DNA of 42,539 nucleotides from Lentisphaerota bacterium (GTDB lineage Bacteria > Verrucomicrobiota > Lentisphaeria > Victivallales > Victivallaceae): the NCBI GenBank assembly GCA_015061695.1, contig SUWA01000011.1, positions 1 through 42,539 on the forward strand, read 5' to 3'. This document shows, piece by piece, positions 4,805 through 37,415 of the stretch. Numbering within the stretch: position 1 is the first letter of the stretch; the number at the start of each line of letters is the position of its first letter. The notes below the pieces were generated by a model. The model was not told where the DNA came from. It searched no databases and was given only the letters and a program-made list of their open reading frames with translations. The position numbers were made by a program, and so were the translations under genes.

Positions 4805-7800
4805 ATGGCTGATAATGATATAGTAGTGTTAGATGGCAAAATGGGATACAAGACGTTGGGTTCGTTATTGCTAGTGAGAATGCATAATGTGGGAGGTGGT
4901 TGGCTAAGCTCGGACTATATTGTCGTGTGGGGTGATAATGAGTGGCGCAAGACGGGGTGGCATGTTAATATGAAACCGTGCACGCACGGTTATACTCAAG
5001 CCGAATTTGAAAACTGTACCAACGCAGTTATGATTTCTTTATTTAAACCCCAAGATGTTCTGGCAGATATTGGGTATAAAATCGGCAGTGCTACTTACAG
5101 CCAGCTTTACGGAGAAAGATTTTTCTACCTTTATGCCGAAGATCAAGAGGTAATTGAGTCTGTTACCAAGTATACTTTGACGATTGTCCCCAATGGAGTT
5201 ATGTCCTGTCAAACCAAATATGATGGTACGTATGATCTGGCTAATGCAATTGTACTGCGCGATGAGCTTATGTTGAAAGATGTTACCGTAGGAAGTAATT
5301 ATGACGGTAATATGTTAAAAGTCAATGCTATGGCTTGCAATATTACCGTAAATAACGGTGGGGAGCTTCATGCCGGATTTGAAACAACAAATGAAGAAAA
5401 TACACTTTTCTCTATTGCTAATGTAACGGTGAATAATGGAGGAACGTTTTTAGGTTTGGAAGGTTCAGTTGCCGGTTTAACGGTGAATAATGGGGGGGTA
5501 GTTGGATTAGAAGATACCCTAATTCTCCGGATAGATAGCGCTGGAGAAGATATCCCCGAAGAATATAAGGACATGACCTCCACTTTTGCGCTTGACATCA
5601 ACAAAGGCGGAATTGTGATTTTGATGGGGGAAAGTTATATTTCGCACAATGTTACGGTTGGTGGTTTGTTGGTAATCGACGAAGCAATGATTCTGGACGA
5701 AGAAATGCAGGAAGGTTACTTTCTGGATTTGACTCTGGAGGCCTATGAACTGGAGGCGGGCAACAGCGATGCTTTGCTGGAAGGTTTTGAAAATCTGGCG
5801 CTTGACTATACCACTTGCAATATTTCGGTCAAATCCGATATGGAACAGGGCTTGTACAAGCTGGCTACCGATGTCGGGTCGAGGGTCCTGAGCAATGTGA
5901 CTATTACGGTCGATGGCAGCAGCGCCGGAAAATTCACCTACAGCGACGGCGCATACTCAGCGGTACGGCTCAACGGCATGGACTACAAACTGCTGACCGA
6001 CGACGACTGCCTGACTTTGCAGCTTTCGGCAGTGCCGGTCGTGCCGGTCGTGCCGACTTTTGCGGATTTGAGCATTGCCGCATTTACCGCCCCGGATGCG
6101 GTCAGAACCACGGATGATGTAATTCTGAATTTTGCGGTCAGAAACAGCGGTGATGCCGCCGCCGCTGCCAGTAAGCTCTATATTTATGTTGACGGCGTAA
6201 AAATCGGCGAAACTGACATCGGCGAGCTGGCCGCCGGAGCAACTGCGCAAGGTACTTACACCATTAAAGGTAATACGCTCAAAGAAGGCGCCCGCAAGAT
6301 CCGGCTGGTGGCCGACGGCAGCGATCTGGTCGTGGAAAGCAACGAAGGTAACAACGGCTATTCGCGCACGGTCAATGTAACGGGTACGCCGGATTTGACC
6401 ATTGCGGCGTTTACCGCTCCGGCTTCGGTCAGGCGCAACGAAGCTGTAACGCTGAACTTTACCGTTAAAAATAGTGGCGACGGTGCGGCCGCGCCCAGCA
6501 AGGTTTATGTTTATGATGACGGCGTAAAAATCGGCGAAGTTGCCATTGGTTCCATTACTGCCGGAAGCGTCTGCAAAGGCACTTACACCATTGCCGCCGG
6601 TCAGCTGGCCGCCGGAACCAACCGTATCCGCTTACTGGCCGACGGTGCCGGCGCGGTGACCGAAAGCAACGAAGGCAACAACGGCAACAGCCGCAGTGTG
6701 GAAGTTGAAAAACCGGTGGTGGTCGGCAAGCCCGATTTGATCATCAGTCAGTTCAGCGCCGCTTCTGAAGTCAAGACCACGGATGATGTAACGCTGAGTT
6801 TTTCGGTCAAAAATCAGGGCAATGCATCGGCGGCGGCTTCCAAACTCTATATTTATAACGACGGAGTCAAGATCGGCGAAGCGGATGTAAAAAGCATTGC
6901 CGCCGGAGCAACTGTGCAAGGCACTTACACCATTAAAGGTAATACGCTCAAAGAAGGCGCCCGCAAGATCCGGCTGGTGGCCGACGGCGATAACGTTATA
7001 GCCGAATCCAACAATAACAATAACGGCTATACCCGCACGGTCAACGTAACGGGTACGCCGGATCTGACGGTGGCAGTTTTCAGTTTAAGCTCCGGTGCGA
7101 TCAAAGATAACGAAGCTGTAACGCTGAACTTTACCGTTAAAAACAGCGGCGACGGCGCGGCGGCCGGTTCGCTGGCATATATTTATGATAACGGCGTAAA
7201 AATCGGCGAAGTCGCCATCGCTCCGGTGGCCGCCGGCAGCAATGTCAGAGGCTCGTTCACTATTGCCGCCGGAATGCTTGCTGCCGGTGAACACCGTTTG
7301 CGGGTAGTGGCCGACGGCGCTAACAGCGTGGTCGAATCAGACAACAATAATAACGGTTCCAGCAAAGTGTTGAGTGTTGCTGCCAGTGTGACTCCGGCCG
7401 ATCTGGTGATCGGCAGCCTTTCTGCCCCGGAAAAAGTCGATACCAAACAGGATCTTACGCTTGATTATACGGTCAGAAACAATGGCGGAACCGCCGCCGC
7501 AGTTTCGGTGCTGTACATCTATGATAATGGCGATTTGCTGGATATGGTGGTGATAGATCAGGTGGCTGCCCACAGCAGTTATGCCGGATCTTACACGATC
7601 AAAGCCGGTGAGCTTGCCGAAGGTGAACACCGTTTCCGGCTGCTGGCCGATGCTACATCGCTGGTGCCGGAATCCGACAATCACAACAATGGCTACAGCC
7701 GCAGTGTGACCGTGTTTGAACGCACTCCGGCCGATCTGGTGATCGCCGCGTGCAGTGCGCCGGGCAGTGCCGGGATCAATCAGGCGGTCAAACTTGATTT

Positions 7801-8650
7801 TACGGTGAAAAACAACGGCTTGACCGATGCCGGAGCTTCCACGCTCTACGTTTACGATAACGGCGTGAAGATCGGCGAAGTCAAAGTTGATCCCATTGCT
7901 GCCGGAGCCGTTTACAAAGGTTCTTACACTGCCGCCCCGGGTGTTCTGACGGTTGGAACGCACAAGCTGCGGCTGCTGGCCGACGGCGCCAACAGCGTGG
8001 TGGAAAGCAACAATAACAACAACGGTTATACCAGAACCGTGGAAATCACTGCGGTGAACAATCCGGATTTGACCATCAGCGCCTTCAGTTGCGCCGGCAG
8101 TGTCAGCAGCAATGATGTGCTGGTGCTGAATTACACCGTCAAAAATGTCGGCGATATGCCGGCGGCATCTTCGCTGCTTTACATTTGCAACGGCAACGAA
8201 GTGCTCGGAGCTGTGGTGGTCGAGCCGCTTGCCGCCGGCGGCGTTTATCAGGGCAGCTACAAACTTGCTGCAGACAAGCTCAAAAGCGGCAGCAACCGGG
8301 TGCGGCTGCTGGCCGATGCGGCAGGGCAAATCACCGAAGCCGACGAAAACAACAACGGCTATACCCGCACAGTCAATGTGGTCGAAAATCCCTCCGGCGG
8401 CTGGCTTGAAGCCGGTCCGGCCGCAGAGCCTGAAGCCGGATATCTGCTGCCGGAATCGGACTGCAGTGCAGCCATTGATCTTGAAGTCGCTGCTGTTGAG
8501 TACACCGGCAGCAGCAGCAGTGATCTGATCCGGCTGGATCTGCTGACCGTTGCCGATGGTTCGCAGGAATTGTTGTGTCAGACCGCTGCGGGTATGGAAA
8601 ATGATGAGTTGAAAAGCAAATACGCCATCGAGTTGGGTATCTGCGGATAA
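4805..8650 (+). CDS. Large protein with beta-helix-like repeats and seven CARDB domains
   Basis: A 1281-residue protein. Residues 1-150 are unique. About 150-260 contain spaced ITVNNGG, VTVNNGG and LTVNNGG motifs like the parallel beta-helix of AIDA-type adhesins. From about 420 to 1195 seven repeats of ~111 residues each begin (P/A)DL.I and end with a NNGY(S/T)RTV-type motif, matching the CARDB fold (a bacterial cell-adhesion-related Ig-like domain). A short tail follows. No signal peptide, membrane segment, sortase motif or C-terminal barrel is visible, so the export route is unclear. The first ~300 codons are AT-rich while the CARDB part is GC-rich, suggesting a mosaic gene. Probably a surface or extracellular adhesive protein by family analogy. 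Confidence 0.85.
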   Translation: MADNDIVVLDGKMGYKTLGSLLLVRMHNVGGGWLSSDYIVVWGDNEWRKTGWHVNMKPCTHGYTQAEFENCTNAVMISLFKPQDVLADIGYKIGSATYSQLYGERFFYLYAEDQEVIESVTKYTLTIVPNGVMSCQTKYDGTYDLANAIVLRDELMLKDVTVGSNYDGNMLKVNAMACNITVNNGGELHAGFETTNEENTLFSIANVTVNNGGTFLGLEGSVAGLTVNNGGVVGLEDTLILRIDSAGEDIPEEYKDMTSTFALDINKGGIVILMGESYISHNVTVGGLLVIDEAMILDEEMQEGYFLDLTLEAYELEAGNSDALLEGFENLALDYTTCNISVKSDMEQGLYKLATDVGSRVLSNVTITVDGSSAGKFTYSDGAYSAVRLNGMDYKLLTDDDCLTLQLSAVPVVPVVPTFADLSIAAFTAPDAVRTTDDVILNFAVRNSGDAAAAASKLYIYVDGVKIGETDIGELAAGATAQGTYTIKGNTLKEGARKIRLVADGSDLVVESNEGNNGYSRTVNVTGTPDLTIAAFTAPASVRRNEAVTLNFTVKNSGDGAAAPSKVYVYDDGVKIGEVAIGSITAGSVCKGTYTIAAGQLAAGTNRIRLLADGAGAVTESNEGNNGNSRSVEVEKPVVVGKPDLIISQFSAASEVKTTDDVTLSFSVKNQGNASAAASKLYIYNDGVKIGEADVKSIAAGATVQGTYTIKGNTLKEGARKIRLVADGDNVIAESNNNNNGYTRTVNVTGTPDLTVAVFSLSSGAIKDNEAVTLNFTVKNSGDGAAAGSLAYIYDNGVKIGEVAIAPVAAGSNVRGSFTIAAGMLAAGEHRLRVVADGANSVVESDNNNNGSSKVLSVAASVTPADLVIGSLSAPEKVDTKQDLTLDYTVRNNGGTAAAVSVLYIYDNGDLLDMVVIDQVAAHSSYAGSYTIKAGELAEGEHRFRLLADATSLVPESDNHNNGYSRSVTVFERTPADLVIAACSAPGSAGINQAVKLDFTVKNNGLTDAGASTLYVYDNGVKIGEVKVDPIAAGAVYKGSYTAAPGVLTVGTHKLRLLADGANSVVESNNNNNGYTRTVEITAVNNPDLTISAFSCAGSVSSNDVLVLNYTVKNVGDMPAASSLLYICNGNEVLGAVVVEPLAAGGVYQGSYKLAADKLKSGSNRVRLLADAAGQITEADENNNGYTRTVNVVENPSGGWLEAGPAAEPEAGYLLPESDCSAAIDLEVAAVEYTGSSSSDLIRLDLLTVADGSQELLCQTAAGMENDELKSKYAIELGICG
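6062..7385 (+). repeat. Tandem ~670-bp dimer duplication inside the CARDB array
   Basis: Repeats 1 and 2 are duplicated as a pair into repeats 3 and 4, offset 669-672 bases. ACGGATGATGTAA at 6110 recurs at 6779 and AACGAAGCTGTAAC at 6437 recurs at 7109. One stretch of about 70 bases near 6250-6318 is nearly identical to 6920-6987. Repeats 5-7 are more diverged. This indicates a recent unequal exchange. Confidence 0.8.
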
Positions 8651-10305: not shown

Positions 10306-11424
10306 TCAATTGTTTTTGTCATCGTGCTGCAGCAGGCGGGTTGGCTCCTGCCGGCCGGCGCTTACGGCGGTTCCCAGCATCAGCATGACTCCGACCAATG
10401 AACTGCCGCCGTAACTTACCAGCGGCAAAGTTATGCCGGTCGGCGGCAGCAAGCCGAGGTTGACTGCTATATGCAGCATGGTCTGCATCATAAGCATACA
10501 GCTCAAAGAGTCGATTGCGCTCCGTCGCAGCGAGTTTCTCCGCCACGCTCCCAGCGCGAACATCTGCCGGAAAAGTCCGGCATAAAGCATCAGCAGAATA
10601 AATGCGCCGCAAAAGCCCAGCATTTCGCACAAGCCGGCGAAGATGGAATCGTTGTAAGCCAGCGGCAGAAAACTGTTGCTCCACACGGCCATATCGCCCT
10701 TGACCCCGGTCCACTCTCCGCGCGAAACCGCAATCGTGAACTGGTGCAGATGCCAGCTGCCGCCCAGCGGATCGAGTTCCGGGCAGAAAAAGTGCAGCAG
10801 CCGCTTGCGCATATAGCCGTTGGCCATGATCGCGCTGATCGCCGCCGGAACTGCCGCCAGCGCAGTCAACAGGAGATATTTGAACTTGACCCGGCAGAAA
10901 TAGAGTGTACCCAAGCCGCCGGTCAGATAGATGATCATAGTGCCAAAATCCGGTTGGAGCAAAAGCAGCAGCACAAACAGTGCGATCACTCCCAGCGCAG
11001 TACCCACCCGTGCCGCCTCCGGTAATTTCGGCAAGTGCAGAATATGTACCAGCGTAAGGATATAAAATACTTTGAGCAATTCCGATGGCTGCAGACTGAA
11101 TCCGCCCAGCTTGAACCATCCGCTCATGCCGTTGATATTGTTGCCCATCAGCGGTAAAAGCAAAAGCAGCAGCACTCCGCCGGCAGTTATCGGCAGACAA
11201 TATTTCATCAGCGTGGAAAATCTGATCCGGCAAATCACAAAAAACATGCTCCATGCGGTCAGCGCCCACAAACTCTGTTTGCCCAGCAGTTCCGACCAGC
11301 TGCCGTTCAGGGCCAGCGTGCGGTAAATCGCCATCAGCCCCCACAGCGTGATCGCACCGGCCGCCGCCGCGATCAGCGTGATATGTAAATGAATCTTGTA
11401 AGTTTGCTGCTGACGTTTATTCAT
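10306..11424 (-). CDS. SEDS-family peptidoglycan polymerase (FtsW/RodA)
   Basis: A polytopic inner-membrane glycosyltransferase of the FtsW/RodA/SpoVE family, 372 residues, which polymerises lipid II into glycan strands together with a class B PBP. Family hallmarks are NGMSGWFKLGGFSLQPSEL, QPDFGTMIIYL, LPLAYNDSIFAGLCE (whose Asp matches the essential aspartate region) and the C-terminal LLPPTGITLPLVSYGGSS. FtsW and RodA cannot be told apart safely; the G-x-x-x-x-x-S-x-x-FLPLAYND stretch looks slightly more FtsW-like. The ATG at 11424 is preferred over a GTG at 11436 because GGGGAG precedes it at good spacing. It overlaps the stop of the PBP-pedestal gene by eight bases, so the two are translationally coupled. 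Confidence 0.93.
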   Translation of the reverse strand: MNKRQQQTYKIHLHITLIAAAAGAITLWGLMAIYRTLALNGSWSELLGKQSLWALTAWSMFFVICRIRFSTLMKYCLPITAGGVLLLLLLPLMGNNINGMSGWFKLGGFSLQPSELLKVFYILTLVHILHLPKLPEAARVGTALGVIALFVLLLLLQPDFGTMIIYLTGGLGTLYFCRVKFKYLLLTALAAVPAAISAIMANGYMRKRLLHFFCPELDPLGGSWHLHQFTIAVSRGEWTGVKGDMAVWSNSFLPLAYNDSIFAGLCEMLGFCGAFILLMLYAGLFRQMFALGAWRRNSLRRSAIDSLSCMLMMQTMLHIAVNLGLLPPTGITLPLVSYGGSSLVGVMLMLGTAVSAGRQEPTRLLQHDDKNN

Positions 11425-12079
11425 TATGCTCCCCACCGGGGGTTATCTGTACTGTTACATCCCGCCCGTCAACCGCATCGCGGGTTATCCGGAAAGTAGA
11501 CTCCACCCAGTTGCCGTGCCGGTCGAGCATAACACTGAAAGTGCCCGGTGTGCCGCGCAACTGTGAATCGTACTCTTTTTCCCAGCCGGAAATACCGGTT
11601 TCCACACCGTTGATCTGCCGGACCTGACCCACTTGCGCGTGATGTGCATTGATCCGTCGTTCCCAGCGCAAGTCTACATCCAGCGCCCGGTAAGTCAAAC
11701 TCAACCGGTCGGCGGCCTCCACTTCGGCCGCAGTCAGATTACGTTTCAGCACCGTGTTGCGGGTGTGGAAGTTTTCCGGCAGAAAAATATCTTTGAAACT
11801 GCTTTTCAGGTCGCCGATCATGGCATCGTGCTGCGAAGCATTGTAGCGGTCAACTTTAAAAATCAAATCGTAGCAGCGTTCCGACCACGCCAGCAACCGG
11901 CCGTTCCGGTCATAGATCCGCCCGCGTATGGCCGGCAGTTCTCCGGTCTGTTCCGAAGTTTTGATGACCTCCTGCCGGTAACGCTCTCCTCCGGCTCCGG
12001 CCAGAAAAAGCATCCGGCCGATGATCAAAAACAATCCGGCCAAAGCAATGATAAAAAATATTTTATGACGCTTATCCAA
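11417..12079 (-). CDS. Class B PBP pedestal without transpeptidase domain
   Basis: A 220-residue protein, starting at a TTG that follows GGGAG by six bases. One membrane helix lies at about residues 6-27, followed by the class B PBP anchor motif RGRIYDRNGRLLA (52-64), the dimerisation/pedestal region, and the motif SGWEKEYDSQLRGTPG that in PBP2/FtsI closes the pedestal. The chain ends at DVTVQITPGGEHNE, exactly where PBPs read DVxLTID and enter the transpeptidase domain. No S-x-x-K, S-x-N or KTG motif exists here or just downstream; the next gene, a SEDS polymerase, overlaps the stop. Class B pedestals activate SEDS partners, so this looks like a dedicated non-enzymatic activator. A stop-generating truncation is possible but coupling argues for a maintained gene. 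Confidence 0.85.
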   Translation of the reverse strand: MDKRHKIFFIIALAGLFLIIGRMLFLAGAGGERYRQEVIKTSEQTGELPAIRGRIYDRNGRLLAWSERCYDLIFKVDRYNASQHDAMIGDLKSSFKDIFLPENFHTRNTVLKRNLTAAEVEAADRLSLTYRALDVDLRWERRINAHHAQVGQVRQINGVETGISGWEKEYDSQLRGTPGTFSVMLDRHGNWVESTFRITRDAVDGRDVTVQITPGGEHNE

Positions 12080-12189
12080 ATCAGACTCCCTGCTGGTGGA
12101 TAACAATAACTCAATACTGTTTTTTGCAGTTTCTGAAGCAGTAAAAACTCTAAAACAGCGTTGCTCCGGACGAACCGCCCGCATCTGCC

Positions 12190-12825
12190 TTATGATTTGC
12201 GGTCAAGCAGATTATTGATAAGCTGAAAAAGCGTTTTCATATCCTGCGATACATTACCGGCCTGACAGCGCCGGAACCGGTCGCCCCGCGCGTTGGCTTC
12301 CAGCACGCCGGACATCTCTTCCAACGGCGCCAGTAAAGCCCGCCGCATCCGCTGTTCAAAGTAGATCGCCAGCACAAAGAATATCAGCGTCAGCAGCACA
12401 ATGGCCCATGCCCCGGCCTGCCTTAACCGCTGGGCACGATCCGCAGCTGCGGTGATTGCCTCCTGATTATCTCTGTGCAGCTCCAGAACCTGTTCTGACA
12501 ATGCGATTTTTACCGTTGCATCTCCGTTTTTGAGTTGCTCGAAAAGCTTTTTTATAGTATTGATATTTTCTTCTTCGCCCTGTTCGGTGATATTGTCTGC
12601 GGCAATTTGGAGTGCAGCTTGGAAATTATCCTGATCCATCGACTTGGCGGTCAGCTCGCGCAGCATGATTTCGCAGGCATTAAGGCTGACCACGTTGCGG
12701 TCGCAGATACTTTGGATTTCCGGATTCATGCGCTGAAAGTGCCAGACCGCGCCAAAGCTCAACAGCAAATTGAACAGAATCATCAGCCAAACACTCAACG
12801 AAATGATCTTGCCCGAGGGAAACAT
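12190..12825 (-). CDS. HAMP-domain membrane sensor-like protein without output domain
   Basis: 211 residues. A first membrane helix (about 8-28) is followed by a ~105-residue helical periplasmic region rich in Glu, Gln and Asn, like the four-helix bundle of chemoreceptors. A second helix lies at about 138-156, then a HAMP-like segment (RRALLAPLEEMSGVLEANARGD and on to FQLINNLLDRKS). It ends there: no histidine kinase, cyclase or MCP signalling domain. HAMP domains pass conformational change across membranes, so it may signal through a partner protein. It starts three bases after the KtrA gene ends and precedes the PBP pedestal gene by 110 bases, within the same transcription unit. Function not assigned. 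Confidence 0.75.
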   Translation of the reverse strand: MFPSGKIISLSVWLMILFNLLLSFGAVWHFQRMNPEIQSICDRNVVSLNACEIMLRELTAKSMDQDNFQAALQIAADNITEQGEEENINTIKKLFEQLKNGDATVKIALSEQVLELHRDNQEAITAAADRAQRLRQAGAWAIVLLTLIFFVLAIYFEQRMRRALLAPLEEMSGVLEANARGDRFRRCQAGNVSQDMKTLFQLINNLLDRKS

Positions 12826-12828
12826 GAT

Positions 12829-13482
12829 TTATACCTCCCGTGAAAGTTTGTCGATCGCCCGGTCATCCGATACGATCAACAGCATGTCATCGGCCGACAA
12901 CACCTGTTTGGGATCCGGCTTGTACAGCACCCCGTTGCGGCGCACTGCAGCGACAATGATACCGTATTTCTTGGGCATTTCCAGATCGACGAGAGTTTTG
13001 CCGACCATGGAGGACGGCAGCCGGATCTCGGTAAGACTCAATTCATAGCCGGAGTCATTTTCGGGAATGATATTGCGGTAAAGCAAGTGGGTGGCAAATC
13101 GCCGCCCGAAATCCTGTTCCGGAATGATAACTTCGTGCGCTCCGACCATAAAAAGAATGCGCCGGTAAGTGGCGCTGCTGGCGCGGGCCACAATATGCTT
13201 GCACCCCATTTGCCGCAGCAGCGCGGTGCAGATAATGGCGGATTCTTTGGAGGAATTGCCCATGGCACAGATCACAGTATCGCGCTCGGCGGGCATAAGT
13301 TTGGCCAATGCGGATTCATCGGTGGCATCCAGCGCCACCGCATGAGTAACAAACTCGGCCGCCATATCGATTTTTTCCTGTTCGGTATCTACCGCCAGAA
13401 CTTCGACTCCACGATCAGACAGGGCTTTGGCCAACGCCATGCCGAATTGTCCCAACCCGATGATCATCATTTGCTTATTCAT
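12829..13482 (-). CDS. ktrA: KtrA/TrkA-type RCK regulatory subunit of a K+ transporter
   Basis: A 217-residue cytoplasmic protein. The N-terminal RCK (Rossmann) domain begins MIIGLGQFGMALAKAL with the G-x-G-x-x-G nucleotide motif and an acidic residue at the end of beta-2 (VLAVDTE), consistent with NAD(H)/ATP binding. The C-terminal RCK_C domain covers about 135-217 (LPSSMVGKTLVDLEMPKKYG, then DDMLLIVSDDRAIDKL). The length is that of KtrA, one RCK_N/RCK_C unit, not the doubled TrkA of E. coli. It gates the membrane subunit encoded 21 bases upstream (13504-15513). AAGGAG-like sequence precedes the ATG. Confidence 0.95.
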   Translation of the reverse strand: MNKQMMIIGLGQFGMALAKALSDRGVEVLAVDTEQEKIDMAAEFVTHAVALDATDESALAKLMPAERDTVICAMGNSSKESAIICTALLRQMGCKHIVARASSATYRRILFMVGAHEVIIPEQDFGRRFATHLLYRNIIPENDSGYELSLTEIRLPSSMVGKTLVDLEMPKKYGIIVAAVRRNGVLYKPDPKQVLSADDMLLIVSDDRAIDKLSREV

Positions 13483-13503
13483 AAAAATAATTCTCCTTGA
13501 TCT

Positions 13504-15513
13504 TCAGCCCAACGGAATATCTATCCGCGGATATCCGGGAGTTTTGCCCGGATGCCGGTCACTTAATAACAAAAACAGCGTCAAAGGTCCGATACGCCCC
13601 ACAAACATGGCAATGATGATGATGATCTTGCCAATAACATCCAGCGACTCGGTTATACCCAAACTCAATCCTACTGTAGAAAGTGCTGAAACCGCTTCAA
13701 AAGTCAGTTTGCCCGGCGAAATATCCTGGGTGGAAACCAACAGCAGTACCAGCACAAAAAGTACGCAGATCGCCGATACCAGCACCGCCAGCGCATGCAG
13801 TACGCTGGAATGAGATACTCTGCGGCTGCCGATAACGACCTGTTCTTCGTTGCGCAGAGCAGCTCTGAATGCAAACAACAACACTGCTGCAGTAGTTGTT
13901 TTGATGCCGCCGGCCGTTCCGCCGGGGCTGCCGCCGATAAACATCAGCGCCATGGTCAGCATGGCCGCCGGTACTCCCATGCTCAACAGGTCGACCGCAT
14001 TGAATCCGGCAGTACGCATGGATGCAGAAAGAAAAATACTGTTGATGACTTTATCGGTAATTCCCAAATGCCCCAGGATCCCGTTCCACTCAAAAAGCAG
14101 TACAAAAAATGCTCCGGTCAGCAGCAATATACCTGTCGAATACAAAACCAGTTTACTGATGAACGGCAACTGGCGTTTGCGCCGCATATCCAGAAGACCG
14201 AACGTTACCGCCGGCGACACCCCGCCCAGCACGACCTGACAGGCGATGACCAGCAGCAGCATACCTTCGTTCATATATGGACTCAAACCGGCTTCACCGG
14301 GGAAGATCCCGGCATTGCAGTAAGCCGAAATACTGGTGAAAACGCCCAGTTCCAGAGCTTGCGCAAAATTACCGTGTACCGAATAAAATCCCCAGGTAAG
14401 AAAGAATGCGCCGATCAATTCAACAATAAAAGTAAAACTGAAAATCAACCGCAGATTTCTGGAGAGATCATTTTCTTCCACGCCGGATATTTCGTTGAAT
14501 ATCAGCTCCTGATTGAGCGATAATTTGCCCAGCGCGTGCAGTGCCAGGGTAGCCAGGGTCATTATCCCCAGCCCGCCGCATTGGATCAGGAGCAGCAGGA
14601 ATATCCGGCCGACCGGAGTCAGCTCTTTGGACACATCGATCGTAGTCAAGCCGGTGATACACGCTCCGCTGACGGCTGTAAATGCTGCGTCGATCACCGG
14701 AATATTTTCCTGCATGGCGATCGGAGTGCGCAACAGCAGCGTTCCGGCGGCACACAGCGCCATAAAGGTCAGCACCAGACAGCGGGCCGGGTGCCGGAGT
14801 ATCAATTCCAGATACTGCAGATCCGCATGTTTGCGCCGCAATATCAGCACCAATGCAATAACGGCAAATATCAGCGCGGTTATTACTATACCCCCGGTAA
14901 ATGTTTCCGTCAGCAGTATTATAAGAACCACACCCAGCAGAGCTGTTATCAGCCGTGGATGATGAAAAAACTCCCGGATTTTCAGATAAGGGATGAGTAA
15001 AACCATGCCCACAAATGTATTTATAAGCACCGCCAGCGGAAAAAACTCAAATTTGTAAGCAAAAAGCGGCGAAAATAATGTCAGCAGCAACGTCCCCCAA
15101 CAGCAGCCGTAAAAGCGGTTCAATTGCAGTTTGCCGGTCAGCTTGGCCGCCGGATAAAGCCGGGCCGAAAACATGTAGTAGAGTCCGCCGGCGGATAATA
15201 TGGCGTAAAACAACGTCAGCAGTGCATCGTTGATCAGCTCGAACCACAGGATGGCAGTATTGAGCATCATACCGGCCAATACCAGCAGTTTGCCCCGGTG
15301 AGGCTTGCTGAAAATCATAGCTATGCCGGAAATTTGCAGTACCGGGATCATCAAGCCGAGCAGTAACGACAAGGCCTGCCCCCAAGGTCCGAACAGACCG
15401 GCAAGATATGGATGTTGTATTTCGCACGCCAGAACTGTCAGCGGCAAAAATCCCATTACCAGCCCCTGCAGAGCATACTGGCGGGATTGGATTTGTAATT
15501 CATTGAACTTCAC
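13504..15513 (-). CDS. ktrB: KtrB/TrkH-type K+ channel subunit with long N-terminal membrane extension
   Basis: A 669-residue membrane protein. The core (about 238-669) has the four pore regions of the Trk/Ktr/HKT superfamily: SGACITGLTTID (282-293), AYCNAGIFPG (397-406), MRTAGFN (499-505) and STVGLSLG (612-619), each with the filter glycine, plus GGSPGGTAGGIKTTT (527-541). Residues 1-237 form an extra domain with about seven hydrophobic segments that ordinary KtrB (about 450 residues) lacks. The start is a GTG at 15513, with AAGGAG nine bases upstream. First gene of the minus-strand unit running to 10306. It imports K+ (or K+/Na+) with KtrA. Confidence 0.93.
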   Translation of the reverse strand: MKFNELQIQSRQYALQGLVMGFLPLTVLACEIQHPYLAGLFGPWGQALSLLLGLMIPVLQISGIAMIFSKPHRGKLLVLAGMMLNTAILWFELINDALLTLFYAILSAGGLYYMFSARLYPAAKLTGKLQLNRFYGCCWGTLLLTLFSPLFAYKFEFFPLAVLINTFVGMVLLIPYLKIREFFHHPRLITALLGVVLIILLTETFTGGIVITALIFAVIALVLILRRKHADLQYLELILRHPARCLVLTFMALCAAGTLLLRTPIAMQENIPVIDAAFTAVSGACITGLTTIDVSKELTPVGRIFLLLLIQCGGLGIMTLATLALHALGKLSLNQELIFNEISGVEENDLSRNLRLIFSFTFIVELIGAFFLTWGFYSVHGNFAQALELGVFTSISAYCNAGIFPGEAGLSPYMNEGMLLLVIACQVVLGGVSPAVTFGLLDMRRKRQLPFISKLVLYSTGILLLTGAFFVLLFEWNGILGHLGITDKVINSIFLSASMRTAGFNAVDLLSMGVPAAMLTMALMFIGGSPGGTAGGIKTTTAAVLLFAFRAALRNEEQVVIGSRRVSHSSVLHALAVLVSAICVLFVLVLLLVSTQDISPGKLTFEAVSALSTVGLSLGITESLDVIGKIIIIIAMFVGRIGPLTLFLLLSDRHPGKTPGYPRIDIPLG

Positions 15514-16866: not shown

Positions 16867-18900
16867 TTAAGGAGTTCCAGCCGGGCGCCTTATCACCTTG
16901 CCGGGAAAAAAGTTAAATTCATCTTTATAAGTACAGTTTTGCGGAATTTCCAACGTTTTCAATTTGCTGAAGGAGCTGAAAGCAGTTGCATCGATCCAAC
17001 TTACGCTGTCCGGAATCTTTATTGCAGTCAGATTATCGCAATCGGCAAACGCCCTCTCACCGATGGCAGTTACGCTGTCCGGAATCTTTATTGCAGTCAG
17101 ATTACGGCAATCGGCAAACGCATGTTTACCGATGGCAGTTACCCCCTCCGGGATTGTTACCGAAGTAATATTGCTGCTCATCACGCCGCTGACCGTGCGG
17201 CCATCCTTGCTTAAAACAAGCACATTTTCTATTGCTTTGTTCGCCCTTGCCCGATCGACCGCAAACATTCCGTACAATGTTACCAGAACTGCCGCAACAG
17301 AACAAGCCAGATAAACTTTCGGGCTCAATTCAAAGGGCTTTTTCCGGTCAATCAGGCAGTGGATGATTGCAAATATATCGACCAAACAGGACAGAACCAG
17401 AAAAACCGCGCCGTATTCCACCGGAATATTCAATTTTTCCAACCAAATCAATGCCCGGGGATTATCTTCCGGCAGTATCCACTGCAAAATCGGCACGCAC
17501 CCGAACAAAAGCAAAAACATATTCAGCGGCAGCATAAAGTGCCACTTGATATTGCAATAATAAGCATTACTGATCGCCTTAATGGTAAACAGCAGCGAAA
17601 TGACCGAAATGCAGGTTACAAATTCTCCTGTACTCCTCCATGTATCGTTCGGTTGGGCTCCTGCATACACAAAACTCATAAGCACCATCAAACCGCAGCC
17701 GATCAGGGCAAAGCCAATCGTTTTGAGCAAAAATGCAAGCCGGTTTCTTTCCGCCGCCCTGCAGCTGCTCCACATGCAGAGAATGAACCACACCCCGTTG
17801 CAAATATATGGATTGCCGATTATTTTATGCAAAAATCCTGCCCAACTAAACAAAGCATCAATAGTAAATTTTTGTGAAAAATATACTGCACCAAAAATAC
17901 AGAAACCATACCAGCACCATCTTGCCGGCAAGCGCCAGTCAAATCCGCGCCCGATATTTCTGAAAATCGTCTTCCAGGTAAATATCAGAGCCAAGATCAG
18001 TATTATTCCCCAGGCCGCAACCTGCGAAATCATCGGATGCGGCAATCCGGTTGCTTCGACCCTCAGCATAGCAAGCAAAGCGGCAATGACCGGCAGGAAC
18101 ATACACAGGAACAGACGCCCGAATTTGCCTTGAGCGATGAGCAAAACCAGCAATATTTTTGCCATACTTTCGAGGATCAATATGATTGTATAATGCCACA
18201 ATGCCGTCCTGAAAAGTTCATTATTAACCATGCCTGACCCCATTCCGGGCTCCGGCGGAAAAACACATTTGTAAGCGATCGGCAGCAAAATAACTGCGAT
18301 CAGCGGCAGGATCAGAGTATGGAACGTTTTCCGGAACTTTTCTTCATCATCCCGTGCGGCGATCAACAGCATCCCCGCCGCCAGCAAGGCGCTTGATATG
18401 GCCGTGCTGATCCCCGCCAGTGACGACCTCACAAAGCTGAAGCAAGCTCCATACTCAAGGCCATAGCGGAAAGCATAGGCAACCACCGCCGAATCTATGA
18501 GCATCCCGCCAATTACATACAGCAAGCCGGTCAAAATAAAAAAGATCAGATAACTGTTTTTATACCACGGCAGATAACAATTGCAATACCATTCTTTCAA
18601 TTTGGAGTTGGCCTTGCCGGCATCGCAATGAACGGCCGCATCCGGCAAATATGTTGCCACCGGGGCAACTTTTACCGGCGCTGCAACCGGCGCTGCCGCC
18701 GGAACATCCAACGGTTTGAGCGCTCCCGGCATGACAATTGGCACGGCACGCACTTCCGGCTTGACCTCTTTGGCGGCAGTTGCTGTTGCGCCGGCTTCGG
18801 CAGTTGCGCTGTTCAACCACTCCCGGCAATAGCGGCACTTCAAAGCATCCGCCTTGATTATTTCGCCGCAAAAAGGACAAACTCGAGTATCGTTATTCAT
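16867..18900 (-). CDS. Zinc-ribbon / polytopic membrane / leucine-rich-repeat fusion protein
   Basis: 677 residues with three parts. An N-terminal zinc ribbon has C8-x2-C11 and C22-x2-C25 (CPFCGEIIKADALKCRYCREW). An Ala/Val/Pro-rich linker (~30-85) leads to a large membrane region (~115-555) with roughly twelve hydrophobic helices. The C-terminus (~570-665) has BspA-type leucine-rich repeats (VTIPEGVTAIGKHAFADC, then IKIPDSVTAIGERAFADC) of 23 residues. The repeats come right after a last helix (VYLACSVAAVLVTLYGMFAV). The membrane part is not recognised as a transporter. With an even helix number the repeats would be on the same side as the zinc ribbon, the cytoplasm. Monocistronic; no partner genes nearby. 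Confidence 0.75.
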   Translation of the reverse strand: MNNDTRVCPFCGEIIKADALKCRYCREWLNSATAEAGATATAAKEVKPEVRAVPIVMPGALKPLDVPAAAPVAAPVKVAPVATYLPDAAVHCDAGKANSKLKEWYCNCYLPWYKNSYLIFFILTGLLYVIGGMLIDSAVVAYAFRYGLEYGACFSFVRSSLAGISTAISSALLAAGMLLIAARDDEEKFRKTFHTLILPLIAVILLPIAYKCVFPPEPGMGSGMVNNELFRTALWHYTIILILESMAKILLVLLIAQGKFGRLFLCMFLPVIAALLAMLRVEATGLPHPMISQVAAWGIILILALIFTWKTIFRNIGRGFDWRLPARWCWYGFCIFGAVYFSQKFTIDALFSWAGFLHKIIGNPYICNGVWFILCMWSSCRAAERNRLAFLLKTIGFALIGCGLMVLMSFVYAGAQPNDTWRSTGEFVTCISVISLLFTIKAISNAYYCNIKWHFMLPLNMFLLLFGCVPILQWILPEDNPRALIWLEKLNIPVEYGAVFLVLSCLVDIFAIIHCLIDRKKPFELSPKVYLACSVAAVLVTLYGMFAVDRARANKAIENVLVLSKDGRTVSGVMSSNITSVTIPEGVTAIGKHAFADCRNLTAIKIPDSVTAIGERAFADCDNLTAIKIPDSVSWIDATAFSSFSKLKTLEIPQNCTYKDEFNFFPGKVIRRPAGTP
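17001..17138 (-). repeat. Two near-identical 69-bp leucine-rich-repeat units
   Basis: 17001-17069 and 17070-17138 match over about the first 50 bases with only a couple of differences, encoding IPDSVTAIGERAFADC-type units. A third, diverged unit follows to about 17170. Recent duplication within the gene. Confidence 0.8.
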
Positions 18901-19162: not shown

Positions 19163-19190
19163 TTGAAAAATATAAAAAAAATGCTATCTT
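19163..19190 (+). promoter_or_regulatory. Candidate promoter of the large secreted protein
   Basis: TTGAAA (19163-19168), 16 bases, TATCTT (19185-19190). A TTG start codon could be read at 19163, but it coincides with this -35 and gives an unlikely leader, so the site is read as a promoter with translation starting at 19226. Confidence 0.45.
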
Positions 19191-19225
19191 TACAGAAAGT
19201 TATTGAACAGCAGTGGACGTATTTT

Positions 19226-22072
19226 ATGAAAATCACCCGTATTGCGATTTTGATCTCCGCCATCATCCTGACACTTCAGTCGGCGGCAGCAGATGCTTTG
19301 TCAATTCCGTGCGGCAGCAAAAAAAGTATTGTATACTCTGCCGGAAAAGCCCCGCGTTATCTGGCATTTGATGCTGTGATCAACACCCATGGCAAATACA
19401 CATCCGGCGGGGCATACGGTTTGGCTGTACGGCTCAACGGCCACGCACTGCTGGCCTCGGAACTGGTCAACAAACCTTTCAGCATCAACTATAATAAAGG
19501 CAAACTCAATTATATTGACGATGGCGGGAGGCTTTTTCTGCCTTATTTATCGACCGGCCAGGCCAACCGCATCAGCCAAACTTTTGTCTTTAAGGTGGAA
19601 AACCTTGCCCGCGCGGCCGAAAATACGCTGGAAATAAGCAATATATATAACTTTTACGCCGATTCGCAAGTGGAAATCAGCGCGTTGCGCTGGCTGGATT
19701 CCCGGCCGGAAGGCAGCCAAATCACAGCTCCGCAGATAAAAAACCGGCGGTTGGCCGGGGTTATTTCCATACCGCTGGGCGGCAAAAAATCGATTCCGGT
19801 TTCTGAAAACCCCGATCGACTGTCATATCTGATCTTTTCCGGCCGGATCGAAACCAACCAATGGCGCAGCGGGGCTCAACCGGCTCTGATCATCCGCGTC
19901 AACGGTCAAAGTGTCAGGGCAATGCGTCTGAAAAACAAAAGTCCATACTTCCATTTCCGAACCGACAGCAATATGGAGTGGGTATCCGGCGACCGCATCA
20001 ATCTGGGCTACTACCCGCTGCATCAAGTCAAAAAAACGATCGACGGACATTTTATCCACGACTTTGTTTTTGACTTATCCGGCTTGCTGAAAAATGACAG
20101 CAGCGATGTTATTGAACTCGAAAATATCTTTGCCGCATTCCCGGGCAGTACAGTCGAGCTGTTTGATTTGCGCTTGAGCGACGGTAATTTTCTGCGTTCG
20201 CGCCATAGCAGCGAAACAGTGTTGAACAGTTATGGTGTTCACCAGTTGCGCCAGCGTGCCGAAAGTCTGCACCGGGGCGTAAATAAAAAATTCGATACCC
20301 CCACGGAAAGCACTCTGATACAAACTCCCATTGTATTTACGCCCGGCCAACTGCCGCGCTGCAAAATCAGTATCTCGGAACAAGACGGAGGACTCGAGTT
20401 CCGGAACAATAGCGAAAAATTGCTTTTAACTACTCAATACCAGCTCTGCGGCAAGACTTTTACCTTGCAGAATAATCAACTGCAGACGCCCGAACTGAAG
20501 GTCAGCCGTCAAATCCGGTTCACAGCTTACGGCGCGATCATCAGCGATACTTTGACCAATCGCACCAATAAGGATCTGCCGGTAGTAATGCTGCACAGTT
20601 TCAAGTTGGATCTGGAGCGTCTGCAATCGTTCCGCGTGGCGGGCGAAGCGCTGCCGACCTTCAATTTGAGTACCAACAACCTGACTGAACGCAAGTATTC
20701 GCAGACCCCGCTCATTTTTCTGCAAATGCCGGAAAACTCTTTTGGCATCTACATTACGGACGATGTCTTGCGCAATCAATACTCACTGCTGACAGTTGAC
20801 GAAACGCTGCATCTGACGGACGATATATTTTATCTGCCGCCCCAAAAGAGTTACACCACCAGTTTCCGGATCTATTCGTTCCCGGGCAATTACTATGATT
20901 GTTTGAATCTGCTGCGTAAAGAGTTTGATTTGCATCAACTCATACCCGGATTGTTCGGTTTTGTTTATCAGGAAAAAAATTCGCCTTACTACGAGCGGTA
21001 TTACCGGCAAAAACTCAATACGCCCGAAAAGATCCGGGAGTTTTTTGCTGCTTCCGGCATCACCATCCCCGCCGCCACCGGCAATCCCATGCTCTATGGC
21101 AGCGAAAAATCTGTTGAGTGGCAAAAAGCCTATTCGGTCTGGGAGCAGTTCCAAACCGACATCCGCAGCGCAAAAGCGCCGGTCAAGGCCTTTCTGCACT
21201 ACTGCGACGTGCATCTGGTAGCCGTCAAAGGCGACAAAGATCTGGATGGTCAAAGTTTATGGCAGGAGCGTCTGCATGACAGCGTAATGCTCAATGCCAA
21301 CGGCCACCCTGTCCCCTACAGTTCCGGGAAACTCTACCATGTGGTGCCGACTTTGGAAAACAGCTCCGGCCGTCAGATCAAAGCCAATTTGCAACCAGTT
21401 CTGGCCCGGCATCCAGCCAACGGCATATTTTTTGATGAGTTCAACCACTCCCGCGCCCGCATTGCCTGGAACATGAGCGATAATTATTCGGCGCTGTTGG
21501 ATAAAAACGGCAATATAACGCGTAAATTTGCCATTGTACCGCTGAAAGCGCAGCCGTTTCTGCTGGATATTGCCCGCACGGCCACTGCCAATGGCCGCAT
21601 TGCCTATGCCAATCAATTTGATTGTACGCTGCAGCTTATGCAGCTGCCGCTGGTGCATTTTGCCGAACCGGTGGCACATGAAGAGAGTTATCTGATCCGT
21701 GCCGCACAGTGTTCGCGTTCGCCGCTGACTTTAAGCTGCAAGCGCAATACTGCAGTCTGGAGCGATATAAAATATTTTCTGCAATATGGTGTGGCGGTCT
21801 GCTATTACGCCAGCCGCAGTTACGGCGATCACGTTTTGCAAAAACTTTATCCGCTGACAGTTTACGAAGTTCAGCCCGGTGTGATCTATGGCGGAAACAA
21901 GCTCCTGACCGGCCGATCCGGCACCTACACCCTGCCCGGAGCAGAAAAACTGACCGTATACATCTACCGCGATCCCGACGGCATGTCAGCCGAAACCCGG
22001 CAAATCACCGGCAATACTGTGGATTTACAGCTGGACCCCGCTACCGAAGTCGCTCTGATCGTGGTCAGGTAA
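19226..22072 (+). CDS. Large secreted protein, duplicated N-terminal beta domains, possible glycoside-hydrolase-like barrel
   Basis: 948 residues from the ATG at 19226. A signal peptide (MKITRIAILISAIILTLQ, cleavage near SAAADA) indicates export. Two related ~150-residue domains follow: each starts with (I)P.G.KKSI, has a LAVRLNG/LIIRVNG strand and a F.F.V./FVFDLS strand, and ends with an EISN/ELEN...A.S.VE(I/L)..LR.. motif, so an internal duplication is likely. The middle region is beta-rich. The C-terminal third reads like a TIM-barrel with ANGIFFDEFNHSRA, an acidic strand end seen in glycoside hydrolases, and ends in a beta-sandwich. A polysaccharide-active role is an inference only; no family is named with confidence. 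No transport or regulatory genes flank it. Confidence 0.7.
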   Translation: MKITRIAILISAIILTLQSAAADALSIPCGSKKSIVYSAGKAPRYLAFDAVINTHGKYTSGGAYGLAVRLNGHALLASELVNKPFSINYNKGKLNYIDDGGRLFLPYLSTGQANRISQTFVFKVENLARAAENTLEISNIYNFYADSQVEISALRWLDSRPEGSQITAPQIKNRRLAGVISIPLGGKKSIPVSENPDRLSYLIFSGRIETNQWRSGAQPALIIRVNGQSVRAMRLKNKSPYFHFRTDSNMEWVSGDRINLGYYPLHQVKKTIDGHFIHDFVFDLSGLLKNDSSDVIELENIFAAFPGSTVELFDLRLSDGNFLRSRHSSETVLNSYGVHQLRQRAESLHRGVNKKFDTPTESTLIQTPIVFTPGQLPRCKISISEQDGGLEFRNNSEKLLLTTQYQLCGKTFTLQNNQLQTPELKVSRQIRFTAYGAIISDTLTNRTNKDLPVVMLHSFKLDLERLQSFRVAGEALPTFNLSTNNLTERKYSQTPLIFLQMPENSFGIYITDDVLRNQYSLLTVDETLHLTDDIFYLPPQKSYTTSFRIYSFPGNYYDCLNLLRKEFDLHQLIPGLFGFVYQEKNSPYYERYYRQKLNTPEKIREFFAASGITIPAATGNPMLYGSEKSVEWQKAYSVWEQFQTDIRSAKAPVKAFLHYCDVHLVAVKGDKDLDGQSLWQERLHDSVMLNANGHPVPYSSGKLYHVVPTLENSSGRQIKANLQPVLARHPANGIFFDEFNHSRARIAWNMSDNYSALLDKNGNITRKFAIVPLKAQPFLLDIARTATANGRIAYANQFDCTLQLMQLPLVHFAEPVAHEESYLIRAAQCSRSPLTLSCKRNTAVWSDIKYFLQYGVAVCYYASRSYGDHVLQKLYPLTVYEVQPGVIYGGNKLLTGRSGTYTLPGAEKLTVYIYRDPDGMSAETRQITGNTVDLQLDPATEVALIVVR

Positions 22073-34179: not shown

Positions 34180-35064
34180 GTGAAAAAGAATCATAAAAAA
34201 TCATCCGGCCGGATCGCCGGTAACTCGCCGCGCCGCAATTGGAGTTTGGCGTGGTACTTTGCCATACCCGCCGTCATGCTTATAGCGCTGACGGCTCCAT
34301 GGCAGCGGACGGTCAGGAACTTTTTTGCCCCCTACCTGACCCTTTCCAACACCGCCGGCAACACGGTGGCCGAACAGACCTTGAAAATGCGCAGCCGCTC
34401 CCAGCTGGCCGCCGAAGTTATGAAACTGCGCGAGCAGAACGTAAAACTTATCACCAAAGTCAACGAGCTGGAGCGCTTCAAAAGTGAAAATCTGCAGCTG
34501 CGCAGTATGCTGGAACTTAAAGCTCCGCACGGCTATAAATACACCGCTTGCAGCATTACTTTGCGCGATCCGTGGATGTGGGACAGCGCTTTTACCATCG
34601 ACCGCGGCAGCGATGACGGCATGAAAGTCGGCATGGCAGTGATCGTGCCGGAACCGGGCAGTCAGGAGCGGGTGATCTTGCTGGGCAGAATCGAAAGTGT
34701 CAGCAAACATACCTCGCGGGTCATTACCGTGCTGAATCCGGAAATGCGCATTTCAGCCGTGCTGCCGGAGTCGGATAATGCGGTCGGAATCATCAATGCC
34801 GGTTTGTTTGAACCGGCCAGCGGTGGTACTGCCGCAATTGGTTTTTTGCCGGCCAACCGGACTTTTACGCTGAATCAGCCGATCTATACAACTGAATTCG
34901 AAGCCGGGATCCCCGGCAAATTGTGGCTGGGCACGCTGGAAAGTATTGAGCCGTCGACCTTGCCGTACGACAACCGGCTTTATCGCCGCGGCGTTATGCG
35001 CCCGGCAGCCAATCTGGAGTCGCTGCGTACAGTTCTGGTCGTACAAGTGGACAATCAGAATTAA
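34180..35064 (+). CDS. mreC: Rod shape-determining protein MreC
   Basis: 294 residues. An N-terminal membrane helix (WSLAWYFAIPAVMLIALTAPW, ~21-41), a coiled coil (~70-112, LAAEVMKLREQNVKLITKVNELERFKSENLQLRSML) and the double beta-barrel periplasmic domain (FTIDRGSDDGMKVGMAV typical of MreC, then GRIESVSKHTSRVITVLNP). It scaffolds the elongation complex and contacts PBP2. The start is GTG at 34180 with a weak ribosome binding site. First of four genes with mreD, PBP2 and an SDR; mreB is not in this window. Confidence 0.94.
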   Translation: MKKNHKKSSGRIAGNSPRRNWSLAWYFAIPAVMLIALTAPWQRTVRNFFAPYLTLSNTAGNTVAEQTLKMRSRSQLAAEVMKLREQNVKLITKVNELERFKSENLQLRSMLELKAPHGYKYTACSITLRDPWMWDSAFTIDRGSDDGMKVGMAVIVPEPGSQERVILLGRIESVSKHTSRVITVLNPEMRISAVLPESDNAVGIINAGLFEPASGGTAAIGFLPANRTFTLNQPIYTTEFEAGIPGKLWLGTLESIEPSTLPYDNRLYRRGVMRPAANLESLRTVLVVQVDNQN

Positions 35065-35079
35065 GCCGCAGGACCGGAA

Positions 35080-35607
35080 ATGTTCAAAGCCGTATATTTG
35101 ATCTTGACACAATTTTTATTGCTCTATTTGCAGCTGGAACTGGGCAATATCGGCTGGGCGCTGCCATTGGCCCAGCTGGGGGCGCTCTATGCAGTGCTGG
35201 CATTCGGACGCAACTGGGGCGCCGGCGCGGCGCTGTTCAGCAGCGCTGTTTTGTGCGGACTTTACGGCGGCAGCTGGAACGTGCTTTATCCGCTGGCCAA
35301 CACGCTTTTGGCGCTGATCCTGGGCTGGTGGATCGACCGGCACGACGAAGATGTGCGGCCGGATTTCTGGACTCCCGGAGCGTGGGCCGGATTGCTGGCC
35401 GGGCTGCCGGCGATCATGAACTTGTTGAGCAGTTGGGTTCTGACGGGGCGTTACCCGCAGCAGCTGCACTGGGTGCTGTTGCAGAGTTTGTGGTGTACGG
35501 TGGTTTCTGCCGCGCTTTTTCTGCTGTTTATCGTATTGGGAGAAGTGCAGATGGAGTTTTTGGGTCTGCCGCGTTTCATGACCCGGAAAGGCGGGCATAA
35601 ACGATGA
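35080..35607 (+). CDS. mreD: MreD-like membrane protein
   Basis: 175 residues with five or six hydrophobic segments (VYLILTQFLLLYLQLEL, LPLAQLGALYAVLAFG, ALFSSAVLCGLYGG, PLANTLLALILGWW, ALFLLFIVLGEV). Sequence similarity is not obvious by eye, but position between mreC (15 bases) and PBP2 (overlap of four bases, ATGA) and the topology fit MreD, a small elongasome membrane component. The name rests mainly on context. Confidence 0.75.
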   Translation: MFKAVYLILTQFLLLYLQLELGNIGWALPLAQLGALYAVLAFGRNWGAGAALFSSAVLCGLYGGSWNVLYPLANTLLALILGWWIDRHDEDVRPDFWTPGAWAGLLAGLPAIMNLLSSWVLTGRYPQQLHWVLLQSLWCTVVSAALFLLFIVLGEVQMEFLGLPRFMTRKGGHKR

Positions 35608-37415
35608 CTCCCGAAAACAGTTTCCGCGCCCGGTTGCTGATCGTGGCATTGCTGATGCTGACCGGTTTCGGTGTGCTTATTTTCAAACTCTGGTACGAAC
35701 AGGTGCTGGGCGGCGAGCATTACCGCAAGTCGATCTCGCGCCAATCGGTGCGGCGGGTGCGGCTGCCGGGCTTGCGCGGGCGGATCTTTACTGCGGACTA
35801 CTGCCTGCTGGCCGACAACAAACCCAGCTACAATCTGGTATTTTATCTGCAGGAAATGCGCCGGAATTCCCGTAAAAAAACGGTCGAAAATATCCGCAAT
35901 ATAGCCTCGATACTGGCAACTGAATTCAACCGGCCGGATGACCTTACTTCCGAAAAAATCATCCGGCATATAACCGTTACTCCCGGTCTGCCGCTGGTAC
36001 TCTACAAAGATCTTGATTCCGTAGAGCTGGCGCGGGCTTTTCAGCTGATGCCGCAAATGCCCGGTGTGGGGGTGGAAGTTGTGCCGGTGCGTAATTATCC
36101 GGAAGGCTCAATGGCCTCGCTGGTAATCGGTTACACCCGGTCGGAAAATGCCGATAAAGCCGCCGACCGCAGCGAATATTTTTATTACCGGCCGGATCAG
36201 GAGGGCAAAAGCGGCGTGGAACTTGCCTTTGAAGAAAATGCCGGACTGCTGGGGATCCCCGGATTGCAGAGTTTTCCCGGCAGCGAGCTTATGCAGGTGG
36301 ATCACCTCGGCTATGTCAACACCCGCCGTTTGGAGTACCAGGCTCCGCGCAACGGCAACAATATTGTTTTGACTCTGGACTCGCGGGCGCAGAAACTGGG
36401 CGAAGAACTCATGCAGAACCGCCGGGGGGCGCTGGTTCTGCTTGATGCCGATACCGGCGAAGTGCTGGCACTGGTATCCAGTCCGCACATGGATTTGGGC
36501 AAGATCAGTCCGGTGTGGAGCAAAGAGTATTACCAACAGCTGTTGGAAGATCCCGGCATCCCCATGTTTGACCGGGCGACCCGCGGCTCGTACATGCCCG
36601 GTTCGATCATCAAACCGCTGGTGGCGCTGGCGGCCCTGGCCCGCGGGGTCGATCCGGAATCCAAAGTCAAATGCAACGGCCGCAGTATCGTTGACGGCAA
36701 ACAAATATCTTGTGCCAACCGTTACGGACACGGCGAATTGAACATGCTGCAGGCGTTGGAACGCTCGTGCAACGACTATTTTATCGAAGTCGGGCTGGCA
36801 ATCGGAGCGGAATATCTGGCGGATTTTTACGGTATCGGCGGGATCGGCGAAGCCACCGGCTTGGAAACCGGCGGTACGGTCGGACTGAATCCAATACGCT
36901 GGATCGAAGACAGCAGTTACCGTTGGAGCGATCACGAAACAGCCCTGATTTCCATCGGCCAGGGCAAAGTTCAAATATCGCCTCTGCAAGCAGCCCGTTA
37001 CACGGCGGCTATAGCCAACGGCGGCAAACTGATGAAACTGTATCTGCTTAAAGAAGTCTATGACGAAAAAGGAAAACTGCTTTTCCGCAACAAACCGCAA
37101 GTCATCCGGCAGTGGGATGTATCGCCCGAAGCATTGACGCTGGTTCAAAACGGCATGTACAACGTAGTCAATGCGCCGCAGGGCAGCGGCCGATCCGGGC
37201 GGAGCAGTGAACTGACTATATACGGCAAAACCGGTACGGCCGAAGTCGATATTCGCAACGAACGGATCAAAAACACCTGGTTTACGTCGTTTGTTACTTA
37301 CAAAGGAAAACGCTACGCGTTGACCGTGCTGGTCGAAGAAGGCCGTTCCGGCGGACGCGATTGTGCGCCGGTGGCCAAAGAGTTTTACGAAAGATATTTA
37401 AGCCGTTCATTATGA
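35604..37415 (+). CDS. mrdA: Penicillin-binding protein 2 (class B transpeptidase)
   Basis: 603 residues. A membrane anchor (LLIVALLMLTGFGVLIFKLWYEQ) is followed by the pedestal motif LPGLRGRIFTADYCLLA, the junction KSGVELAFEENAGLLGIPG, and the transpeptidase domain with SIIK (within YMPGSIIKP, the catalytic serine), SCN (ERSCNDYF) and KTG (YGKTGTAE). It crosslinks peptidoglycan during side-wall growth. It overlaps mreD and the following SDR by four bases each (ATGA), so the block is tightly coupled. Compare the protein at 11417-12079, which has only the pedestal half. Confidence 0.95.
   Translation: MTPENSFRARLLIVALLMLTGFGVLIFKLWYEQVLGGEHYRKSISRQSVRRVRLPGLRGRIFTADYCLLADNKPSYNLVFYLQEMRRNSRKKTVENIRNIASILATEFNRPDDLTSEKIIRHITVTPGLPLVLYKDLDSVELARAFQLMPQMPGVGVEVVPVRNYPEGSMASLVIGYTRSENADKAADRSEYFYYRPDQEGKSGVELAFEENAGLLGIPGLQSFPGSELMQVDHLGYVNTRRLEYQAPRNGNNIVLTLDSRAQKLGEELMQNRRGALVLLDADTGEVLALVSSPHMDLGKISPVWSKEYYQQLLEDPGIPMFDRATRGSYMPGSIIKPLVALAALARGVDPESKVKCNGRSIVDGKQISCANRYGHGELNMLQALERSCNDYFIEVGLAIGAEYLADFYGIGGIGEATGLETGGTVGLNPIRWIEDSSYRWSDHETALISIGQGKVQISPLQAARYTAAIANGGKLMKLYLLKEVYDEKGKLLFRNKPQVIRQWDVSPEALTLVQNGMYNVVNAPQGSGRSGRSSELTIYGKTGTAEVDIRNERIKNTWFTSFVTYKGKRYALTVLVEEGRSGGRDCAPVAKEFYERYLSRSL

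Follow-up and report, generated by a model that had tools for sequence, protein, structure and literature searches.

A stand-alone class B PBP pedestal conserved beside a third SEDS paralogue in Lentisphaeria

A truncated class B penicillin-binding protein (bPBP) and a third SEDS paralogue, SEDS3, form a conserved natural gene pair in many Lentisphaeria, and the shortened gene is not an error. In the current view, a class B PBP activates its SEDS polymerase through the pedestal, and the attached transpeptidase couples chain growth to crosslinking. In the pair described here the pedestal stands alone, and we consider it likely, above the other readings weighed below, that it serves as a dedicated non-crosslinking activator and partner of SEDS3, the two forming one complex with crosslinking supplied in trans. 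The pair lies in the window analysed here, a stretch of 42,539 nucleotides (contig SUWA01000011.1 of the Lentisphaerota bacterium assembly GCA_015061695.1, a MAG-like draft of 133 contigs from a Lentisphaeria family near Victivallaceae), with the following features:

10306–11424, minus strand: SEDS3 gene (third SEDS paralogue), 372 aa from ATG; PF01098 at 9.2e-61
10648–10650, minus strand: SEDS3 D259, equivalent of E. coli FtsW D297, the putative catalytic Asp; Asp in 56/57 SEDS3
11417–12079, minus strand: gene of the stand-alone class B PBP pedestal, 220 aa between a TTG start and a TAA stop, from its open reading frame and PF03717-only match
11417–11467, minus strand: C-terminal boundary of the pedestal, from G205-RDVTVQIT to the stop, aligned to E. 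coli PBP2 GHDIYLTLD, the start of the transpeptidase domain
11519–11596, minus strand: pedestal-closing region GISGWE..LRGTPG..VMLDR, residues 162–187, from alignments
11864–11893, minus strand: clade signature LAWSERCYDL, residues 63–72; L63, W65, E67, D71 and L72 (nearly) invariant in alignments
11900–11926, minus strand: RGRIYDRNG motif, residues 52–60, from the translation; R52 invariant in two alignments (A1 and A3)
11999–12073, minus strand: N-terminal transmembrane helix, residues 3–27, from the AlphaFold2 model
12086–12090, minus strand: GGGAG, probable ribosome-binding site of the pedestal gene, 6 bases upstream of the TTG, judged from the sequence
35604–37415, plus strand: full-length PBP2 with transpeptidase domain (Pfam), placed after mreC (34180–35064)

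The initial annotation had described a 220-residue pedestal without a transpeptidase domain; the open reading frame is present, and PF03717 (PBP_dimer; E = 5.9e-14) is the sole Pfam family that it matches, a Pfam search of the protein for the transpeptidase family PF00905 giving no match. Among 29 aligned pedestals, PF03717 was found in all 29 and PF00905 in none. Judged by its sequence, the protein is a bPBP paralogue and yet not a PBP, as it has no C-terminal transpeptidase with an SxxK motif to bind penicillin. The eight bases shared by the pedestal stop and the SEDS3 start, noted in the same annotation, were read directly as ATGAATAA; with the SEDS start sitting over the pedestal stop, there is no room for a transpeptidase. 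TTG starts were likewise assigned in pedestal orthologues of the same genus, where starts were picked automatically.

The AlphaFold2 monomer of the pedestal is confident (pLDDT 92.6, pTM 0.73) and has the single N-terminal transmembrane helix of a class B PBP. Its closest PDB structure is 6pl5_B, the PBP2 of the T. thermophilus RodA–PBP2 complex (1.5e-13), followed by PBP2x and FtsI. In a tree built on a short alignment, the stand-alone pedestal falls with neither FtsI nor PBP2 (local support 0.998), and its aligned signatures are unlike those of either. The VMLDR stretch is highly conserved and aligns with the site of FtsI R210 and K211, two residues that affect SEDS activation (PMC8078798). 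A PHROGs search gave no match.

A protein search with the pedestal returned matches in 83 of 100 relatives, mostly in short open frames, and stand-alone pedestals of the same length were found across the class Lentisphaeria, in about a dozen families; among the genomes that carry them are those of the isolate Victivallis vadensis DSM 14823 and of strains zth2 and WC36, the latter two as complete chromosomes. These proteins stop 11–26 residues past one common conserved glycine, which aligns where E. coli PBP2 enters its GHDIYLTLD segment and transpeptidase domain. The boundary proposed in the initial annotation is thus shared by dozens of independent genomes, complete chromosomes too, which rules out the assembly error that it had raised as a caveat; a full transpeptidase at this locus in close relatives, which would have spoken against its proposal, was looked for and none was found. 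A SEDS gene directly follows the pedestal in 25 of 30 inspected loci, with a 4-base overlap in 17 of those 25, and in 32 of 39 loci of a second set. The pedestal is under purifying selection, with a dN/dS of ~0.09–0.10 in two pairs with unsaturated dS (0.059/0.682; 0.084/0.815). One bPBP-like frame of 207 aa, lying close to the beginning of its contig (G054:C82:202-462), was taken as a truncated full-length bPBP and not as a stand-alone pedestal.

The adjoining protein belongs to the SEDS family by its PF01098 match and FtsW/RodA fold. In the tree, a branch with an SH-aLRT of 100 separates every pedestal-linked SEDS from E. coli FtsW and RodA and from the FtsW-like and RodA-like proteins of the lineage itself, and SEDS3 misses the NCBIfam equivalog cut-offs for both RodA (212.4 vs 336.7 bits) and FtsW (210.5 vs 337.5). 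On this tree and these profile scores, SEDS3 is a third paralogue, neither RodA nor FtsW. Besides the putative catalytic Asp, the alignment shows equivalents of FtsW Q147, E150, D197, R246, G371 and G381 (roles of FtsW residues from PMC8765783), and cavity changes specific to the clade: A135M, R137G, R243 replaced by a hydrophobic residue (A/V/I), and F298S (57/57). K133N is common to SEDS3 and the RodA-like proteins of the lineage. With key residues kept but cavity positions changed, SEDS3 looks catalytically competent, with a remodelled cavity. The SEDS half of a fused pedestal–SEDS3 AlphaFold2 chain resembles FtsW/RodA structures (TMt 0.79–0.87); the chain has a pTM of 0.71, and the relative placement of its two halves is not readable.

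The complete PBP2 that had been placed at 35604 was found there, and a second full bPBP, FtsI-like, lies on contig C80; these two full bPBPs are the only PF00905 genes of the genome. There is one FtsW-like SEDS (contig C129), and a RodA-like SEDS is split between the ends of contigs C119 and C37, with an identical 54-residue overlap; a purA-like gene adjoins it. Given that FtsW, RodA, FtsI and PBP2 are all present, the pair is a third SEDS with a third, transpeptidase-less bPBP, correcting the initial annotation, which had counted it as a second specialised SEDS complex.

Pedestal and SEDS3 occur together. Across 100 relatives, both are present in 71, neither in 27, the pedestal only in 2 and SEDS3 only in 0 (Fisher 2e-22, uncorrected for relatedness, from a presence/absence table compiled by hand). 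In one of the two pedestal-only relatives a contig end lies beside the pedestal (G007), and the other is 78% complete (G038). Absences of the pair are scattered over several genera and families (g8, g16, g18, g23, f8, g40 and g41), suggesting that it is lost as a unit, and in five relatives (G016, G020, G032, G064 and G071) the two genes lie on different contigs with both retained. At class level, two genomes have a pedestal with no SEDS3 detected by profile search (G130 and G211), and the SEDS beside one further pedestal (G232) is very divergent. Conserved boundary, co-occurrence, co-loss, unlinked retention, SEDS clade and fold together give good support to the proposal that a transpeptidase-less class B PBP is coupled to its own SEDS.

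Examination of 289 sampled Verrucomicrobiota genomes with a pedestal profile, their taxonomy taken from record titles, revealed short stand-alone forms (200–364-aa frames) in Lentisphaeria only; in the other classes, all of the matches listed (to about 1.6e-8) are in full-length bPBPs of at least 576 aa. A SEDS3 profile scored >268 bits in Lentisphaeria only, the best score elsewhere being 237 bits, and a contig scan with one motif returned Lentisphaeria and one full-length Butyrivibrio PBP. In the open-access literature we found no account of a naturally transpeptidase-less bPBP partner.

In the complex that we favour, SEDS3 would act in the membrane as a glycosyltransferase belonging to the FtsW/RodA superfamily, and the short protein would be a class B PBP paralogue cut down to a transmembrane anchor and pedestal. 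The pedestal would dock on SEDS3 as PBP2 does on RodA, giving the allosteric contact needed by SEDS polymerases; in RodA–PBP2 and FtsW–FtsI, the bPBP transmembrane helix lies on TM8–TM9 and the pedestal on ECL4 stimulates polymerisation (PMC8078798, PMC6207328, PMC8765783). As the pedestal has no active site, polymerisation would be uncoupled from crosslinking within the complex, and the crosslinks would come in trans from FtsI, PBP2 or an L,D-transpeptidase, YkuD enzymes being present in many relatives. We infer that the two proteins bind each other, that SEDS3 is activated and uses lipid II as its substrate, and that crosslinking takes place in trans; by analogy with the RodA–PBP2 and FtsW–FtsI work, polymerisation would be activated by the pedestal, its product would be peptidoglycan and it would be beta-lactam-insensitive. 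With its transpeptidase missing, the pedestal is predicted neither to crosslink nor to bind beta-lactams. Counting against this model, stop-truncated S. aureus PBP1, a different protein, was not detected (PMC9426605), which implies that its pedestal is not stable by itself.

The pair might polymerise another lipid-linked glycan, of the envelope or a capsule, and not peptidoglycan, which we regard as unlikely. The altered cavity positions of SEDS3, replaced clade-wide, mean that its substrate may differ, and the pair is dispensable, having been co-lost in several genera; however, the catalytic Asp and other key positions are retained, and conservation is limited to the two-gene core, with no recurring glycan-pathway neighbour. 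Still less probable is a regulatory role, in which the pedestal would damp wall synthesis, either by rivalling FtsI/PBP2 for FtsW/RodA or by tying up SEDS3 as a decoy. A catalytically empty bPBP is akin to a dominant-negative partner, and some of the genes upstream are sensor-like, but it is SEDS3, and not FtsW or RodA, that tracks with the presence of the pedestal, SEDS3 keeps its catalytic Asp, and the pedestal does not carry the signatures of PBP2 or FtsI. A split bPBP, with the transpeptidase encoded by a separate gene, is largely refuted and very improbable: PF00905 proteins of about 270–300 aa do exist in some relatives, but the only one that was tested turned out to be a class D beta-lactamase, pair-less genome G036 also has one of ~270–300 aa, and both PF00905 genes of the genome itself encode full bPBPs. 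An assembly error, frameshift or decaying pseudogene, for which we found no support apart from the draft state of the genome, is refuted by the recurrence of the same boundary in dozens of genomes, complete chromosomes included, and by the dN/dS of about 0.1.

Further proposals were rejected. The pair does not simply stand in for class A PBPs (aPBPs): seven genomes, V. vadensis among them, have an aPBP and a pedestal, and aPBPs are also missing from many of the relatives that have no pair (G011, G036 and most of genus g16). The presence of both in some and neither in others excludes a simple swap, and the swap pattern (aPBP, no pair) fits genus g41 only. An L,D-transpeptidase is not an obligate partner, since YkuD was found in 19 of 26 relatives and none was detected in the genome itself. 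Nor is there a larger conserved operon, only the pedestal and SEDS3 being conserved as neighbours.

Directly upstream of the pedestal is a 211-aa protein of no Pfam family (12190–12825, minus strand), which appears to sit in the membrane and to have a HAMP-like region; a 490–660-aa sensor-kinase-like protein is encoded in the same place or one gene further in several gut relatives, and the one searched (L118) likewise had no Pfam match. The pair is adjoined by genes for TrkA/KtrA-like and TrkH-like potassium uptake proteins (12829–15513, minus strand), which are not conserved there in relatives. Elsewhere in the window are a 1281-aa protein, likely at the cell surface, that contains seven CARDB repeats (4805–8650, plus strand), a 677-aa protein that combines a zinc-ribbon-like match at its N-terminus with leucine-rich repeats of the BspA type (16867–18900, minus strand), and a 969-aa open reading frame with a TTG start and no Pfam match at E 0.01 (19163–22072, plus strand). 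Strain zth2 carries a class D (OXA-type) beta-lactamase gene (L164:800–1606, plus strand), and PF00905 genes of about that size are found in several Lentisphaeria.

Like RodA–PBP2 (MrdB–MrdA), the pair joins a SEDS protein and a class B PBP of the same folds, with 6pl5 as best match and the pedestal complete to its end; unlike it, the partner has no transpeptidase and SEDS3 lies outside the RodA clade, in a genome with its own RodA and PBP2. The two folds and the conserved catalytic Asp are shared with FtsW–FtsI, whereas SEDS3 is outside the FtsW clade and the pedestal is no FtsI orthologue. SpoVE–SpoVD is likewise an extra, specialised (third) SEDS–bPBP pair, but SpoVD is a full-length bPBP, and sequence affinity to the present pair does not go beyond family level. 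SEDS activation is also separable from crosslinking in bPBPs with dispensable transpeptidase activity, such as S. aureus PBP1 in an MRSA background (PMC9426605, PMC8078798), where the transpeptidase domain is present, while in the pedestal it is evolutionarily missing.

The class A PBP glycosyltransferase PF00912 is absent from 68 of 71 close relatives searched, the genome itself included, and the pair represents a third SEDS–bPBP lineage in bacteria that often have no aPBPs. Such bacteria, PVC members among them, are already known (PMC8406291, which mentions neither Lentisphaerae nor pedestals). Tentatively, the pair may be a SEDS polymerase with a natural activator that does not bind penicillin, ancestral to Lentisphaeria, making beta-lactam-insensitively either a modified glycan or one that its own complex leaves uncrosslinked. 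If such a complex exists in nature with only the pedestal, it would split the two functions of a bPBP and allow the pedestal-as-activator model to be tested without artificial truncation, and pedestal and SEDS3, being small and naturally paired, would suit structural and biochemical studies; the conserved pair suggests that a polymerase of this kind can build chains with no crosslinking activity built in.
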